From NCBI GenBank assembly GCA_035573675.1, contig DATMAB010000005.1:1-33584 (forward strand): a stretch of DNA of 33,584 nucleotides, written 5' to 3'. Below are positions 14,429 through 24,792 of the stretch, piece by piece. The position numbers and the translations under genes were made by a program. Source of the DNA: Terriglobales bacterium (GTDB taxonomy: Bacteria > Acidobacteriota > Terriglobia > Terriglobales > Acidobacteriaceae). Below the pieces are notes generated by a model, which saw only the letters and a program-made list of their open reading frames with translations, was not told where the DNA came from and did no database searches. Numbering within the stretch: position 1 is the first letter of the stretch; every line of letters starts with the position of its first letter.

Positions 14429-15616
14429 TCAGCGCTCCACGGCTAACGCCACCGAATTCCCGCCTCCCAGGCACAATGCAGCCACACCCTTGTGCGCGTT
14501 GCGGCGAATCATCTCATACAACAGCGTCACCAGGATGCGCGCGCCGCTGGCCCCGATCGGATGCCCGATTGCCACGGCGCCGCCGTTCACGTTCACTTTC
14601 TCAGGATTCAGTCCCAGTTCACGGATGACCGCCAGCGCCTGCACCGAAAAGGCTTCGTTCAGCTCGTAGAGATCGGGATCATCCGGTTTCCATCCGGTCT
14701 TCTTCCACAGCCGGCGCACGCCTTCGACCGGAGCCATCATCACCCAGGCGGGATCGACGCCGCTGGTAGCCTGCGCCACGATGCGCGCCATCGGTTCCAC
14801 GCCCAGTTCCTTCGCGCGACGCGCGCTGGTCACCACCAGGGCTGCAGCGCCGTCGTTCACGCCCGGCGCGTTGCCCGCCGTCACGGTGCCGTCCTTCTTG
14901 AACGCCGGCTTCAGCTTGGCCAGCGCCTCGAGCGACGTGTCTTCGCGCGGACATTCATCCTTGTCGAAGCGCACGACTTCGCCTTTCCTGGCGGGAATCT
15001 CCACCGGGACGATCTGCGCCTGGAAGCGGCACTCCTTGGTGGCAGACAGCGCCTTGCGATGCGAGTGCACGGCGAACTCATCCTGCTCCTGGCGGGTGAT
15101 TTTGTATTTTTCGGCGACGTTCTCGGCGGTCTGGCCCATGTGGTAGTTGTTGTACACGTCCCAGAGCCCGTCGTGAACCATGGAGTCGATGATCTGCGCG
15201 TTGCCCAGCCGGTATCCCTTGCGCGCCTGCGGGAGCAGGTACGGCGCGTTGGTCATGGATTCCATGCCGCCGGCCACCACGACCTCGCTGTTCCCTGTCT
15301 GGATGGCCTGGGCCGCCAGCGCGACCGATTTCAGTCCCGAGCCGCAGACTTTGTTGATGGTCATCGCCGCCACTTCCTTGGGCAAACCGCCGCCGAGCGC
15401 GGCCTGACGCGCCGGATTCTGACCCAGTCCGGCGGAAAGTACGTTGCCCATGATGCACTCGTCGACCTGCTGCGGATCGAGCTTCGCGCGTGAAACCGCT
15501 TCGCGCACCACGATCGCGCCCAGTTGCGGCGCGCTGAGGTCCGCCAAAGACCCCTGGAATTTCCCCACCGCCGTGCGGCAGGCCGAGATGATGACCACTT
15601 CGTCTAAGGACGGCAT
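14429..15616 (-). CDS. Acetyl-CoA acetyltransferase (biosynthetic-type thiolase)
   Basis: Thiolases condense two acetyl-CoA to acetoacetyl-CoA or cleave longer 3-ketoacyl-CoA. The 395-residue protein has the complete catalytic set: nucleophile Cys91 in NKVCGSGLK, His352 in [10 protein letters not shown], Cys382 in CLGGGNS, and the NEAFSVQ motif. It starts [20 protein letters not shown], typical of AtoB/PhbA proteins. The ATG at 15616 is chosen because GGAGAG precedes it by 6 bases and the conserved N-terminus begins there. A consensus -10 box lies 35 bases upstream. No other fatty-acid or polyhydroxyalkanoate gene is next to it, so the direction of the reaction in the cell is open. Confidence 0.95.
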
Positions 15617-15650
15617 ACGACACTCTCCGAAGGCTGGCGCCCCATCTTCA

Positions 15651-15656
15651 ATTATA
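15651..15656 (-). promoter_or_regulatory. -10 element of the thiolase promoter
   Basis: TATAAT on the minus strand, followed by a predicted leader of roughly 28 bases. No acceptable -35 lies 16-18 bases upstream; TTGCAT is 21 bases away. Confidence 0.45.
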
Positions 15657-15806
15657 GACGCGCCTCCGCGCGCGACGATGCAAAACCCCGTCGTCCCGAC
15701 GCTCGACTGCATCTACTTCGGCAAGCTCCGGCTCGCCCGCCGGCGCTCGAGCCGGACACAAGCGCTCCCGTCCGCCTTCGCGCCGCTTCGTGGCTCCTTT
15801 TTTTTC

Positions 15807-15835
15807 TTGACATCACTTCGCGTTGACCCTATACA
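15807..15835 (+). promoter_or_regulatory. Strong sigma-70 promoter of a small transcription unit
   Basis: A perfect -35 TTGACA (15807..15812), a 17-base spacer and -10 TATACA (15830..15835). Expected transcription start is near 15842. It is the best-matching sigma-70 promoter I see in the window. It faces away from the thiolase, toward the micro-ORF at 15901. Confidence 0.75.
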
Positions 15836-15900
15836 TTCAAACAGTGCAACGGAAGAGCGTTGCGAATCTCGCAAGAGAGAAAAGGGAGAATAGAGTCCAA

Positions 15901-15939
15901 ATGGCAACCAAGAAGAAAGCCAAGAAGAAGAAACACTAA
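15901..15939 (+). CDS. Lysine-rich micro-ORF (12 codons) in a dedicated small transcript
   Basis: The frame encodes MATKKKAKKKKH and a TAA stop: eight of twelve residues are lysine, with lysine-codon preference AAG. GGGAG at 15884..15888 lies 12 bases before the ATG, rather far for a ribosome binding site. The unit is framed by a strong promoter (15807..15835) and an intrinsic terminator (15961..15991), giving an RNA of about 150 bases. The same frame is open upstream to a GTG at 15844. A leaderless or near-leaderless 31-residue basic peptide is therefore possible too. The transcript could instead be a regulatory small RNA with a chance ORF. No function is known to me; nucleic-acid binding would be the obvious guess for such a polycation. 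Confidence 0.5.
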   Translation: MATKKKAKKKKH

Positions 15940-15960
15940 CGAGTTTCTTCGGAACGACAA

Positions 15961-15991
15961 GGGGACGCCGCGAGGCGTCCCCTGACTTTTT
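15961..15991 (+). terminator. Intrinsic terminator with GCGA tetraloop
   Basis: GGGGACGCC (15961..15969) and GGCGTCCCC (15974..15982) pair perfectly over 9 bp around the GNRA-type loop GCGA. T5 at 15987..15991 follows, four bases after the stem. It ends the small transcript that begins near 15842. On the other strand the same hairpin lies just beyond the rmuC stop and could contribute to ending that operon, though it is followed there only by TTGTCG. Confidence 0.85.
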
Positions 15992-16003
15992 GCGCAACAG
16001 ACT

Positions 16004-17167
16004 TCAGGATTTGTCGCGCGGCTCGTCCGCCGAGGCCTCCAGTTCCAGCAGCATCTGCCCCGCGCCATTGCCGGCCAGCGACTCCACCCGCGTCTCCAGC
16101 CGCTCCAGTTGCCGTGAGCCCTCGTCGAAGCGGTCGGCGGCGTTCTTCAGGTGCTTGCCCAGCGTGGCGTAGCCGTCACTGAACTTTCCCACCTCCACGC
16201 GCAGCGTATCGATCTGCCGCAGGATGGACTCTGCGCGCCGGCTGATCTGCAGCCCTTTCAGTCCGATGACGATGGTCTGCAGGTAGGCATAGAGCGAGTT
16301 GGGCGAGACCGGGAACACGCGCCGCTCCACGCAGTACTCATGCAGGTCGTTGCCGTCCTCGTCGCGGATGATGGCCTCGTAGTACACGTTCTCCGCCGGG
16401 ATGAAGGCCAGCGCGAATGGCAGCGTGCCTTCGTCCGGGCGCACGTACTTGCCTGCGATCTCGTCGATGCGGCGGCGCACGTCGCGCAGGAACTCCTTGC
16501 GCGCCGCCTTCTTCTCGGTGTCGGTCGCTCCCTCCGCCATACGGCGGAAGTTCTCCAGCGGGAACTTGGAGTCGATGGCCACCACGCCCTGCGGGAACTT
16601 GAGCACTGCGTCGGCGATGTCGCCGGACGCGAAGCCGTACTGCATCTGGAACTGGTCACGGGCGAAGACCTGGGAGAGCAGCGCTTCCAGTTGCACTTCC
16701 CCGAACCCGCCGCGCAAGCGGGGCGCAGAGAGTGCCCGCTGCAGGTCGGTGAGTGAACGCGACATTTCGGAGAGATTCCGCGCCTGCTCGCTCATCTCCC
16801 CGATCTGCCGCTGCAAACCGGCAAAGGCGGACTGCACGCTGGCCATCCGGTCGTTCACGGCCTTGGAAGTGGCCGACATGACGCCCACGTTCTCATGCAG
16901 CCGCTGGGCCAGGTTCTGGTTGAGCGCGTCCAGGCGGTTCCCCACTTCTCCTGCGACGGTCGAGAGCACCGTGTTCACGCTCGCGCCCACCGAAGAAAGC
17001 TGTGTGCCGAAATTGTGCAGGCTGCGATCCGTGGTTTCACGCAGCACATTCAGTTCCTGGCGCAACTGCGCGATCTCCGGGTCGGCGGCCCTGGGGGCGC
17101 GGCGCACCAGCAGCATCAGCAACACGACCACAGCGACGGTGAGGACGACAAGGGCAGCCTCGAGCAT
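16004..17167 (-). CDS. rmuC: DNA recombination protein RmuC
   Basis: RmuC family proteins limit rearrangements at inverted repeats and are thought to be membrane-linked nuclease-like factors. The 387-residue product has an N-terminal membrane helix (about residues 3..22, ALVVLTVAVVVLLMLLV). A coiled coil follows (about 30..130), then the RmuC domain: LRGGFGEVQLEALL, PQGVVAIDSKFPLENF, LPFALAFIPAENVYYEAI, and VFPVSPNSLYAYLQTI. The ATG shares one base with the TGA of the helicase-nuclease gene (TGATG), so translation is coupled. It is the last gene of the hrcA cluster. ATG at 17167 places the membrane helix directly at the N-terminus; the upstream in-frame extension would overlap the preceding gene. 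Confidence 0.93.
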   Translation of the reverse strand: MLEAALVVLTVAVVVLLMLLVRRAPRAADPEIAQLRQELNVLRETTDRSLHNFGTQLSSVGASVNTVLSTVAGEVGNRLDALNQNLAQRLHENVGVMSATSKAVNDRMASVQSAFAGLQRQIGEMSEQARNLSEMSRSLTDLQRALSAPRLRGGFGEVQLEALLSQVFARDQFQMQYGFASGDIADAVLKFPQGVVAIDSKFPLENFRRMAEGATDTEKKAARKEFLRDVRRRIDEIAGKYVRPDEGTLPFALAFIPAENVYYEAIIRDEDGNDLHEYCVERRVFPVSPNSLYAYLQTIVIGLKGLQISRRAESILRQIDTLRVEVGKFSDGYATLGKHLKNAADRFDEGSRQLERLETRVESLAGNGAGQMLLELEASADEPRDKS

Positions 17168-20085
17168 CACTGTACCCCCGCGGAAGCGACCGCCTCGGCG
17201 CGGAACAGGCGCTCTTCGGTGGCCGGACACACGGCACGATACGGACACCACTTGCAGTGAAAGCCCGGCTTGGCGCGAAAGTTCCCTGCCGCGATGCCCT
17301 CCGCCGCTTCGTGAATCTCCTCGACCGCGGCTTCCAAGGCATCCGCATCGCGGGAGGTCACCACACCGGCATTGGTTTCCAGGTTGTAGAAGACGATCTC
17401 CTCCGGCTCCAGTTCCCAGGCGCGCGCCGCGGCCAGGGCATAGATCGAGAGCTGCAGGCTGTCATCGGCGTCTTCCTGCGAGCGCGGCGAGCCGGTCTTG
17501 TAGTCCACGATGCGGATCCGGCGTCCGGTGATGCGGTCCACGCGGTCTACGCGCCCGGTCACGGCCACGCCGTCGAGTTCGATGTGAAACGTCCGCTCGG
17601 TGTCGAGCACATCCGGAAGCGGCTGGACAGCGGCCTGATCGAAGAACCGCGTCAGCTGCTCGACCCCTTGCCTCTCATACAGCTCGCGTTGCAGCGCGTC
17701 CTCGAGTTTCGCCTTTCCCAGTTCCTCGCGGAAACGATCGAGCACCCACTCGCGCACCGGAGGCATTCCGCTTCGAACCGAGTTGTAAAAGTCCTTGAGC
17801 ACAGTATGCACGGCTGCGCCGTATTCCATGGCGGGGGCGGGCTCGCCCGGAAGGTTCCAGTCACGCTCGATCTTGAATCGCAGCGGGCAACGCCGGTAGG
17901 TCTCGATTGCGGATGCGCTGAGCGCGGCCTCGGCTAGCGGCATCCTGGGCGGCAGCTCGATCCACGGCTCGATGGCCGATGCGGCCGCGGCCTGGCCGAA
18001 CAGGTCCACCTGCATCTCCCGCGCGTGGCGCAACTGCAGCCGGTGCCGTATGGATCGGTCTTCATGTAGCCGCCTTAGATATTGCGCCGGCACTTTCTTG
18101 CCTCCGCCCATCTGCGGCCCGAAGAGAACCAGCGAATTCTTCGCCCGTGTGGCGGCCACGTAGAAAATGCGCAGTTCCTCCTCGTGGTGAAGTTCTTTTC
18201 CTTCCAGAGGAACGGGGGCGTGGGCGCGCGACAACTCACGCGGAAACTCGAACAGCGGTGCGCGATAGCCGACGGGGAAGGAATTCGATGTCACGCGAAT
18301 CACGTACACGTGATCGAACTCCAGCCCCTTGGCCAGATGCACCGTCATCAGGCGCACAGCGTCGCCTCCGTCACCCAGGGTGGTTGTGACCTTGCCGCCG
18401 GCCTCGACGAAGTAGCCAAGGTACTCCAGGAACTCTGCCAGCGTTCCCGCCCCGGTGATGGGCTTCTCAGTCCACTGCTGGACGAAATCCCGGAATGCGC
18501 GCACCGGTTCCGCGTCCGTCGCCAGATGAAACCGTTTCAGCGCGAAGTCGATCAGTTCCGGCAGCGGTGTTCCGCTCGCAGCCTTGCGCCGTACATCATC
18601 CAATGCGGCCAGAATCTCCGCACCGCCCGGCTGCGCTTTCAGGATTGCCTGCAAGTCAGGCTTCTTGGCGGCCGCCAGTTCCTTGCGCACGCGGGGACCC
18701 TCGAGGCCGAAGTGCGGCAGGGCCGCCACTCGCAGCAGGCTGACGGAATCCTGCGGGATTTCAGCCGCGCGCAAAATGGCCAGCAGGTCACGGACCTCAC
18801 TGGTGTCCAGCACATCCACTCCCTCCACCGCAACCGGCACTTGCTGGGCTTCGAACTCGGCGACCAGTGCATTGCGGTGCGACACGATGCGGTAGAGCAC
18901 GGCAAAGTCGCGCCAGCGGCAGTTCAGCTTGCGCTTCCGCTCGGCAATGGTGCGGACCACCTCGTGGGCCTCGTGCTGCGGGCTGGGGGACAGCACGATC
19001 TCGACCGGCGCTTCCCTCCATGTTTCCGCGGCCATGCGCGCGCGCCCTTCCCGCGCCGATCGCAGAGGTTCGCGGATGAACTCCAGCGTCGCGCCCGAAG
19101 CGCGCAACGGCGCCGGGTTCCGCTGGATGGCGGCGAAGGCGCAGTCCAGGATGGTCTGGGTGGAACGCTGGTTCTCCTCCAGCGGCAGCACGCGCGCACC
19201 CGGGAAGCGGCGCAGAAACTCCTCGAAGGCTGCGCTCGAAGCTCCCCGAAACCGGTAGATGGCCTGGTCCGGATCGCCCACCGCGCAGACGTTCTTCTGC
19301 TCGCCGCCCAGGAGCTGGGCCAACTCGATTTGGGCCACGTTGGTGTCCTGGAATTCGTCGATCAGGATGAACCGTGCCTTCTGGCGTTCTTCGGCCAGCA
19401 GCCGCGGTTCCTTCTCCAGGAGTTCGACCGCTCGCGACACCATGTGACCAAACAGGCCGAGATTCTCCGCCGCCAGCATCTCTTCCACCTTGCGGTAAAC
19501 GCGGGCGATCTCCTCACAACGCGCCAGCACTTCTTCGTCGCTGATCCGGTCGGCGTCGCGCGGCATGGCGATGCGCGGCAGCGGCAATTCCCCCGTCCGC
19601 AGCCGCGCCACATAGCCTTCATAGGCGGCGGCATCGACGCGATCTTCCAGACAGCGGTCGAAAAAAGTGATCAGGTGATCGAGGAACTCACCGGGGCGCG
19701 CGGCGCGCAGGAACCGCTCGAGCGGAAGCTCCCGCAGGCGCCGTCGCAGGAACACCCACAGGTCCTCCCGGAAGAGCAACCGGAAACCCTTCCCGCGGCC
19801 GCGCAACACGCTGTTGCCGACGGCATGGAACGTATCCGCCCTCAGGCCGCGCGCCTTCGCCGCTCCCAGGCGCTTCTGCACCCGCTCCTGCAACTCGCTG
19901 GCGGCATTTACCGTGAAGGTGACGGCCAGGATCTCTTCCGCGCGGGCATGTCCCTCCGCAATCAGGCGCACCACGCGCTCCACCAGCACCGTGGTCTTGC
20001 CCGTCCCTGCACCCGCAAGGACCAGCAGGGGCCCGTGCGTGTGCTCGACCGCTTCGCGCTGCTTCTGGTTCAGGGAGACTTCCAC
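17167..20085 (-). CDS. UvrD/PcrA-type helicase fused to RecB-like PD-(D/E)XK nuclease with Fe-S cysteine set
   Basis: The protein (about 972 residues) joins a superfamily 1 helicase to a C-terminal nuclease. Helicase motifs are AGAGTGKTT (Walker A, about 25..32), DEFQDT (243..248), GDPDQAIYRFRG (270..281), a motif V region MTVHLAKGLEFD, and FYVAATRAK (motif VI). The nuclease has GRVDRVDR, then IVDYKTG near 860, and QLSIYALA. Cys733 plus Cys944, Cys947 and Cys953 (CxxCx5C) match the 4Fe-4S 'staple' of AddB/Cas4-type nucleases. This resembles AdnA/AdnB-like break-resection enzymes, here as one polypeptide. The GTG at 20085 is the most plausible start but has no clear ribosome binding site; an ATG at 20274 would overlap rsmE by 98 bases. 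It is coupled to rmuC. Confidence 0.88.
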   Translation of the reverse strand: MEVSLNQKQREAVEHTHGPLLVLAGAGTGKTTVLVERVVRLIAEGHARAEEILAVTFTVNAASELQERVQKRLGAAKARGLRADTFHAVGNSVLRGRGKGFRLLFREDLWVFLRRRLRELPLERFLRAARPGEFLDHLITFFDRCLEDRVDAAAYEGYVARLRTGELPLPRIAMPRDADRISDEEVLARCEEIARVYRKVEEMLAAENLGLFGHMVSRAVELLEKEPRLLAEERQKARFILIDEFQDTNVAQIELAQLLGGEQKNVCAVGDPDQAIYRFRGASSAAFEEFLRRFPGARVLPLEENQRSTQTILDCAFAAIQRNPAPLRASGATLEFIREPLRSAREGRARMAAETWREAPVEIVLSPSPQHEAHEVVRTIAERKRKLNCRWRDFAVLYRIVSHRNALVAEFEAQQVPVAVEGVDVLDTSEVRDLLAILRAAEIPQDSVSLLRVAALPHFGLEGPRVRKELAAAKKPDLQAILKAQPGGAEILAALDDVRRKAASGTPLPELIDFALKRFHLATDAEPVRAFRDFVQQWTEKPITGAGTLAEFLEYLGYFVEAGGKVTTTLGDGGDAVRLMTVHLAKGLEFDHVYVIRVTSNSFPVGYRAPLFEFPRELSRAHAPVPLEGKELHHEEELRIFYVAATRAKNSLVLFGPQMGGGKKVPAQYLRRLHEDRSIRHRLQLRHAREMQVDLFGQAAAASAIEPWIELPPRMPLAEAALSASAIETYRRCPLRFKIERDWNLPGEPAPAMEYGAAVHTVLKDFYNSVRSGMPPVREWVLDRFREELGKAKLEDALQRELYERQGVEQLTRFFDQAAVQPLPDVLDTERTFHIELDGVAVTGRVDRVDRITGRRIRIVDYKTGSPRSQEDADDSLQLSIYALAAARAWELEPEEIVFYNLETNAGVVTSRDADALEAAVEEIHEAAEGIAAGNFRAKPGFHCKWCPYRAVCPATEERLFRAEAVASAGVQ

Positions 20086-24715: not shown

Positions 24716-24792
24716 GGGCGCGTAGCTCAATTGGATAGAGCACCGGCCTTCTAAGCCGGGGGTTGCTGGTTCGATCCCAGCCGCGCCTACCA
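24716..24792 (+). tRNA. tRNA-Arg (anticodon TCT)
   Basis: A complete cloverleaf: acceptor GGGCGCG with CGCGCCT (one G-U pair), D arm AGCTC...GAGC, and anticodon stem CCGGC/GCCGG closing loop CTTCTAA. The anticodon TCT is at 24750..24752. The T arm is GCTGG-TTCGATC-CCAGC, the discriminator is A, and CCA is encoded (24790..24792). It reads AGA codons, which are rare in the GC-rich genes here. A heptamer tract begins seven bases after its end. Confidence 0.97.

Follow-up and report, generated by a model that had tools for sequence, protein, structure and literature searches.

A small gene of Terriglobia that may combine a regulatory RNA with a free-standing histone-tail-like micropeptide

Dual-function small RNAs such as SgrS/SgrT and VcdRP are short RNAs with their own promoter and terminator that also carry a small ORF, and the locus described here shares this organization. 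It differs from them in the nature of its peptide, a polycation, and in the distribution of its ORF, which is common across the class but has been lost by one clade. For SgrST, a conserved pairing RNA with an ORF present in a subset of species has been described (PMC8672173), which is similar to the pattern of kept RNA and patchy ORF that we report. As regards the peptide, its nearest known counterparts are the tails of AlgP, PhaF and Hc2 (Pfam PF07382), with which it shares disordered repeats rich in K, A and P. An excerpt of PMC9239181 describes the AlgP tail as KPAA repeats and reports that peptides with such repeats, from AlgP as well as PhaF tails, bind DNA in vitro.

The window is the whole stretch of 33,584 nucleotides that was analysed, and its features of interest are collected in Table 1. 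Direct reading of the sequence confirmed a promoter, a leader, a 12-codon ORF and a terminator where a preliminary description of this DNA had placed them; the two leader hairpins, H1 (15845-15864) and H2 (15867-15878), were absent from that description. The −35 box (TTGACA, 15807-15812) is a perfect match, and the −10 box (TATACA, 15830-15835) agrees with TATAAT at four of six positions across a spacer of 17 nt. A promoter scan of 14800-17200 reported zero promoters, and it missed this one because it demands a T at position 6 of the −10 box. The terminator hairpin (15960-15983) has 10 pairs and a GCGA loop followed by GACTTTTTGC, with five T, and its stem is the longest among the four terminators found in 14800-17200, where shuffles led us to expect 1.4. 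The predicted RNA folds at −55.3 kcal/mol versus −34.9 in shuffles, which is 5.6 standard deviations better, and H1 probably lies close to its 5′ end. At the sequence level the locus is thus a discrete unit with its own promoter and terminator, as a dual-function small RNA should be, and its transcription is predicted from these signals. No Rfam family reached its gathering threshold over the unit; BjrC68 (RF02353) scored 21 bits over 15931-15991, the terminator stretch, below its gathering score of 39. A tRNA gene at 24716-24789 is the sole Rfam match at threshold within the window. The thiolase start at about 15618 was judged by eye. As rmuC lies on the opposite strand, the unit is not an rmuC leader.

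Table 1. Features of the unit and its neighbours in the window, with the loci of the second gene in other genomes
Feature	Position	Strand	Basis
Promoter with T-tract, TTGACA-17-TATACA	15799..15835	+	sequence
Predicted transcript of about 150 nt, start deduced from the promoter	15842..15993	+	promoter and terminator positions, fold z-score
Leader hairpin H1, arms TGCAACG/CGTTGCG	15845..15864	+	stem test and covariation
Leader hairpin H2, TCTC-GCAA-GAGA	15867..15878	+	stem test; only 4 pairs in the window, GCAA loop
Shine-Dalgarno GGGAG (15884-15888) within GGGAGAATAG	15884..15893	+	alignment
Micro-ORF MATKKKAKKKKH, ATG 15901 to TAA 15939, 12 codons	15901..15939	+	translation, codon-position bias, composition
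Intrinsic terminator (hairpin 15960-15983)	15960..15993	+	terminator scan; stem test in relatives
Thiolase gene, divergent neighbour	14429..15618	-	Pfam Thiolase_N 9.8e-107, query 14429-15637
rmuC gene, downstream on the opposite strand	16004..17251	-	Pfam RmuC 8.3e-56
Second-gene loci	L031-L036, L178-L200, L267-L277		

We then asked how widely the unit is conserved. A BLASTN search with 196 bases gave matches in 51 of 100 relatives, part of them covering only the Shine-Dalgarno sequence and ORF or only the terminator, and the 30 loci of the best matches, all of which were read, each contained the promoter, the leader, a lysine-rich ORF and, beyond its stop codon, a hairpin. A scan of public genomes for GGGAGAATAG, a gap and the five first codons, a pattern of which the string GGGAG is therefore part, returned at least 117 stretches, with 2 of 117 off target. 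Among the matches listed (80), 79 were titled Acidobacteriota and one Motilimonas; the titles named Edaphobacter, Granulicella, Terracidiphilus, Acidobacterium or Sulfotelmatobacter, or gave no such name. We built a model that spans the promoter, the leader and the first codons from 58 units (alignment A2, which leaves out L019, one of 59 representatives). In a sample of 299 genomes of the class it found 91, with one place each: 66 in family f1, to which the window belongs, and 25 in families f2, f3, f5, f6 and f8. Eight f1 genomes were listed as missed by the model, five of which matched later at a looser threshold, and 188 further misses fall outside that listing, which is apparently ordered by kinship. 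Among 297 genomes drawn from the phylum 30 matched, all of them f1. Outside f1, the loci of 21 of the 25 matched genomes were read, and all 21 have a lysine-rich ORF, of 11-76 residues. At this sensitivity, the unit seems to be characteristic of the class. TTGAC is invariant and the −10 box nearly invariant in the 58 aligned units, TTGAC having been required when units were selected. Most comparisons below use 142 distinct units from loci L001-L176, defined by an ORF with more than 35% Lys, by GGGAGAA and by TTGAC at the right distance; GGGAGAA was no condition in the BLASTN search. Seventeen of these 176 loci gave no lysine-rich ORF at first pass: 13 correspond to the second gene described below, to other families or to something other than this unit, two were cut by the end of the locus and two were chance matches. 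Altogether, we regard it as virtually certain that the conserved gene is real. The self-contained small gene with a lysine-rich ORF proposed earlier is upheld, as the whole unit is kept in other Acidobacteriota, and both the ORF and the RNA are conserved in relatives, one of the points on which the preliminary description had made its proposal depend. No paper on this gene was found in the literature searched, a coverage outside which most subscription journals and preprints fall.

The hairpins were examined unit by unit. In the 30 nt after the −10 box (H1), 97/142 units versus 2% of shuffles can form a stem with 7 or more pairs. The 24 nt that precede GGGAG (H2) allow a stem with 5 or more pairs in 122/142 versus 14%, and the 90 nt that follow the stop codon (terminator) one with 7 or more pairs in 138/141 versus 14%, figures whose significance the shuffles overstate because the units are related. 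For H1, paired cells amount to 93.3% versus 87.5 in shuffles, sliding the partner abolishes pairing, and cells with both sides changed number 25 versus 7.1; H1 thus covaries, although one measure of covariation out of five, the count of pairs in which both sides changed, gave no excess (4 versus 3.3 in shuffles, 215/500). H2 is out of register in alignment A2, and its support comes from the per-sequence test. Hairpins near the 5′ end protect mRNAs from decay starting there, and in units that have the ORF, the leader could be conserved only for the sake of translation and mRNA stability.

The RNA is also retained without the ORF. Of 17 f1 loci that were read, eight contain the lysine-rich ORF and nine lack it (genera g31 and g88, and genome G205 of g34), and these nine keep the promoter, the GGGAG string and the terminator hairpin. 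Matches to the first gene without the ORF occur in 14 of 19 genomes of g31 and 25 of 28 of g88 (39 genomes); single matches were weak to moderate (E 4e-8 to 0.03), and the sequences are plainly alike by eye. The ORF was absent in all 40 loci of g31 and g88 that were inspected. These loci provided 32 distinct noncoding units, the other eight being duplicate copies, truncated at the end of a contig or not recognized by the promoter pattern, and G205 (L258) brings the set to 33. A second, g31-like noncoding unit is found in a g88 assembly (L318, G374), either as a true second copy or on a stray contig. None of the 33 units has an ATG, GTG or TTG 8-24 nt after GGGAG, where the 154 coding units have an ATG by selection; a relaxed Rfam search of one noncoding unit gave two chance-like matches on the minus strand, below threshold. 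The 34 bases that begin with GGGAG (GGGAGCGCAGGCAAACGCAACCAAGGCAAAGCA plus one base) have a mean identity of 97% among 25 g88 units, as compared with 85% for 30 positions around H1, 76% for the downstream flank running into rsmE, and some 45%, estimated by eye, upstream of the promoter. A one-base indel (CCAAGG or CCAGG) lies inside this conserved stretch, and therefore no reading frame is kept. In a tree of 83 RsmE proteins the 32 units make up one side of a branch with support 100/96; G205, absent from this tree, is a separate case. Because other families of the class encode the peptide, the simplest history would be one old loss of the ORF, the RNA being kept through the radiation of the clade, plus one separate loss. 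This retention suggests a separate role for the RNA.

Noncoding and coding units occupy the same neighbourhood. Downstream of the noncoding units, rsmE is found on the same strand in 32/33, at a median of 97 nt from the left arm of the terminator, and the upstream gene is thiolase in 12 and sdaA in 15 of the 33. A thiolase gene lies upstream on the minus strand in 80/154 coding units, 137 of which have at least 900 bases of upstream flank. The nearest of five sought genes is on the same strand in part of the coding units (rsmE 52, rmuC 1), on the opposite strand in 65 (55 uvrD-like, 6 rmuC, 4 rsmE), and 36 have none of the five; the identities of the rsmE, sdaA and uvrD-like neighbours were confirmed by Pfam. 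The RNA retained in the ORF-less clade could be a cis leader of rsmE. One may therefore imagine that the locus is a peptide gene only, the RNA being an mRNA with a stabilising leader and the promoter and terminator of g31 and g88 having been kept for another use, such as an rsmE leader or attenuator. The same-strand rsmE next to 32 of the 33 noncoding and 52 of the 154 coding units is in keeping with this idea, and leader hairpins together with a strong Shine-Dalgarno sequence fit the needs of a short, abundant mRNA. However, a terminator-type hairpin is visible in the noncoding units inspected at full length, the 65 coding units that face an opposite-strand gene leave no room for a leader there, and identity in g88 culminates in the GGGAG stretch and not around H1 or in the flank running into rsmE. 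We consider a peptide gene only possible, although rather unlikely, and we lean towards a trans function of the RNA, at any rate in the clade that lacks the ORF.

A short motif may bear on the role of this RNA. Between GGGAG and the terminator, GGCAA is present 2.2 times per unit in noncoding units, versus 0.14 in shuffles, with at least two copies in 32/33, and 0.64 times per unit in the 3′ UTR of coding units, versus 0.04, with at least one copy in 89/151, in both cases among related sequences that are not independent. It is commoner with peptides starting MATKKA (68/79) than with others (19/70), and the 3′ UTR of the window contains none. The motif may serve in base pairing or in the binding of a protein.

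In units that have the ORF, its product is a very short peptide made almost entirely of lysine-rich polycation, close to pure polylysine. Unlike in AlgP, PhaF and Hc2, the tail is here the whole protein, 12-30 residues long in the 142 units and without any other domain. Of 2,666 residues 1,379 are K and 769 are A, and the remainder, besides the start Met, are only T, P, S, G, V and H, the latter, with 57 occurrences, always being the final residue. After the start Met, these units have no acidic residue and no large hydrophobic residue other than V, a narrow composition that follows partly from their having been chosen for more than 35% Lys. To our knowledge, such a peptide is unlike those of the dual-function RNA class.

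Longer relatives were also encountered. Locus L254 (G014) encodes a 32-residue member, MAAAKKPAAKKAAPKKAAAKKPAAKKPAAKKR, in the promoter-ORF-terminator unit, and two loci of other families contain the same kind of ORF, with 57 residues and no type-A promoter seen (L041) or with 76 residues and a type-A promoter (L234); from these last two, there is a gradual passage between the micropeptide and longer H1-like tails. Five longer relatives all stayed under the Pfam and NCBIfam cut-offs, and for PF07382 (40 bits) the 32-residue member reached 19.2 bits while those of 30, 57, 76 and 114 residues gave no match. Larger two-block proteins consist of an acidic N-terminal part followed by an H1-like Lys/Ala/Pro tail (L059 at about 1490-1834 on the minus strand, L335, L337 and L339), and the one from the genus of the window ends in KKKKRKKKH, resembling the micropeptide. 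We rejected the idea that large H1-like proteins substitute for the lost ORF: among 18 genomes searched, PF07382 was over its cut-off in 5 of 10 without the ORF (G278, G031, G228, G371 and G205), 1 of 6 of the family with it (G047) and 0 of 2 of other families, a weak trend made of unreliable low-complexity matches.

With regard to its target, the peptide might be a ribosome-associated basic peptide of the bTHX or bL37 kind instead of a DNA binder, as it is tiny, lysine-rich, of the same size class and charge, and preceded by apparently strong expression signals. However, its length is not fixed and drifts from 11 to 76 residues, unlike that of these ribosomal peptides, and its repeats resemble H1 tails; we find this reading unlikely. 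It is fairly likely that the peptide binds nucleic acid or another polyanion, and plausible that it works like an H1 tail.

The substitution pattern of the ORF is that of a protein gene. In 107 equal-length pairs of nearest relatives, differences at codon positions 1, 2 and 3 number 141, 97 and 453, and 345 codon differences are synonymous versus 177 nonsynonymous; the first codons were in the scan pattern, and the remaining ones are free of that condition. Changes in ORF length stay in frame throughout the 142 units. We therefore hold with high confidence that the peptide is selected as a protein, and selection at this level is also what a dual-function small RNA calls for. The preliminary description had offered a 31-residue reading from the GTG at 15844 as well. 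A start of this kind is in frame and open in 2/142 units, both from the genus of the window, and the distance from the −35 box to the ATG takes every value modulo 3, so this longer reading fails. Some in-frame upstream ATG, GTG or TTG exists in 89/142 leaders, its position not being conserved.

A second gene encodes the same kind of peptide. Loci L031-L036 encode MATKKKAAKKKKH, MATKKKAKKKKH, MPAKKKAAKKKKH or MAAKKKAKKKKKH, and their promoter region, leader and terminator differ from those of the first gene. This gene was read in 23 f1 genomes (14 + 9), in some of which the peptide is longer or richer in A and P. In family f5, locus L038, with CAATATCTTG, encodes MAAKKKAKKKK, in a genome that also carries the first gene (L037, MAAKKKAKKKR). 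When 299 genomes were searched with a model of the second gene, matches were obtained in 13 f1 genomes and, doubtfully, in one other, and the genome of the window gave no match. CAATATCT stands near the expected place of the −10 box in 13/14 copies and in 6/9 further ones; L195, which lacks it, was left out of alignment A3, where the invariance of CAATATCT is thus by selection. As CAATATCTTG is present in most copies, an NrdR box was considered, and the idea was dropped because the pattern is not consistent upstream of ribonucleotide reductase genes (11 loci, two chance-like matches). A gene for a MerR-type regulator (Pfam MerR_1) is found downstream; its cluster covers 18 of the 23 loci and has 16 members on the same strand. 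The strongest argument for the importance of the peptide is that two genes with unrelated regulatory DNA encode it in similar form.

According to these results, a small RNA only, whose lysine codons would be incidental as the preliminary description had allowed, is very improbable. The RNA kept without the ORF in the 39 genomes would agree with it, and an RNA rich in AAG and AAA could bind Hfq. However, the third-position bias, the in-frame length changes and the residues avoided in the 142 lysine-filtered units contradict incidental codons, and the second gene keeps the peptide on an unrelated RNA. To the earlier alternative of a peptide or a small RNA, the answer would appear to be both, as the ORF is selected as a protein in most lineages seen and the RNA outlasts it in two genera. 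Finally, a leader peptide (attenuator) sensing lysyl-tRNA, which a run of Lys codons before a terminator could bring to mind, is extremely improbable, since the next gene in the window is on the other strand, as is the nearest sought gene in 65/154 coding units, the same-strand gene elsewhere is rsmE (52) or rmuC (1), which are not lysine genes, and none of the coding units with a sought gene (all but 36 of the 154) has a co-directional lysine-related gene behind the terminator.

On balance, we favour a dual-function small RNA/mRNA that makes a free-standing polycation resembling a histone H1 tail, with an RNA that is also active without the ORF. A sigma-70-type promoter would direct the synthesis, from about 15842, of an RNA of some 150 nt that starts near a hairpin likely to protect its 5′ end, exposes the Shine-Dalgarno sequence and ends at the intrinsic terminator. 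Ribosomes would then translate the 12-residue peptide. The start Met is generally removed where Ala follows, so that the product would be ATKKKAKKKKH, a disordered polycation like the tail of histone H1, which most likely would act by charge on DNA, RNA or another polyanion, e.g. polyphosphate. A function of the RNA independent of the ORF is proposed because the RNA outlived the ORF in one clade, and it would be read from that clade and not from the lineage of the window. In its broadest form our proposal is tentative: a class-wide gene of Terriglobia might use one transcript both as a regulatory RNA and as the message for a histone-tail micropeptide that stands alone and can be as short as 11-12 residues, with a second, independently regulated peptide gene in some lineages and a Terriglobus-like clade that dropped the peptide and kept the RNA.

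Genes of 11-13 codons are usually skipped by gene callers. If our proposal is true, this would be a conserved protein gene of that size in a phylum abundant in soil. It would also constitute a natural experiment, with lineages that have the RNA and the peptide, lineages that have two peptide genes and lineages that have the RNA alone, and the comparison of such strains could separate the function of the peptide from that of the RNA. Moreover, with a peptide consisting only of a histone-like tail, the effect of such tails by themselves could be tested directly in a bacterium.
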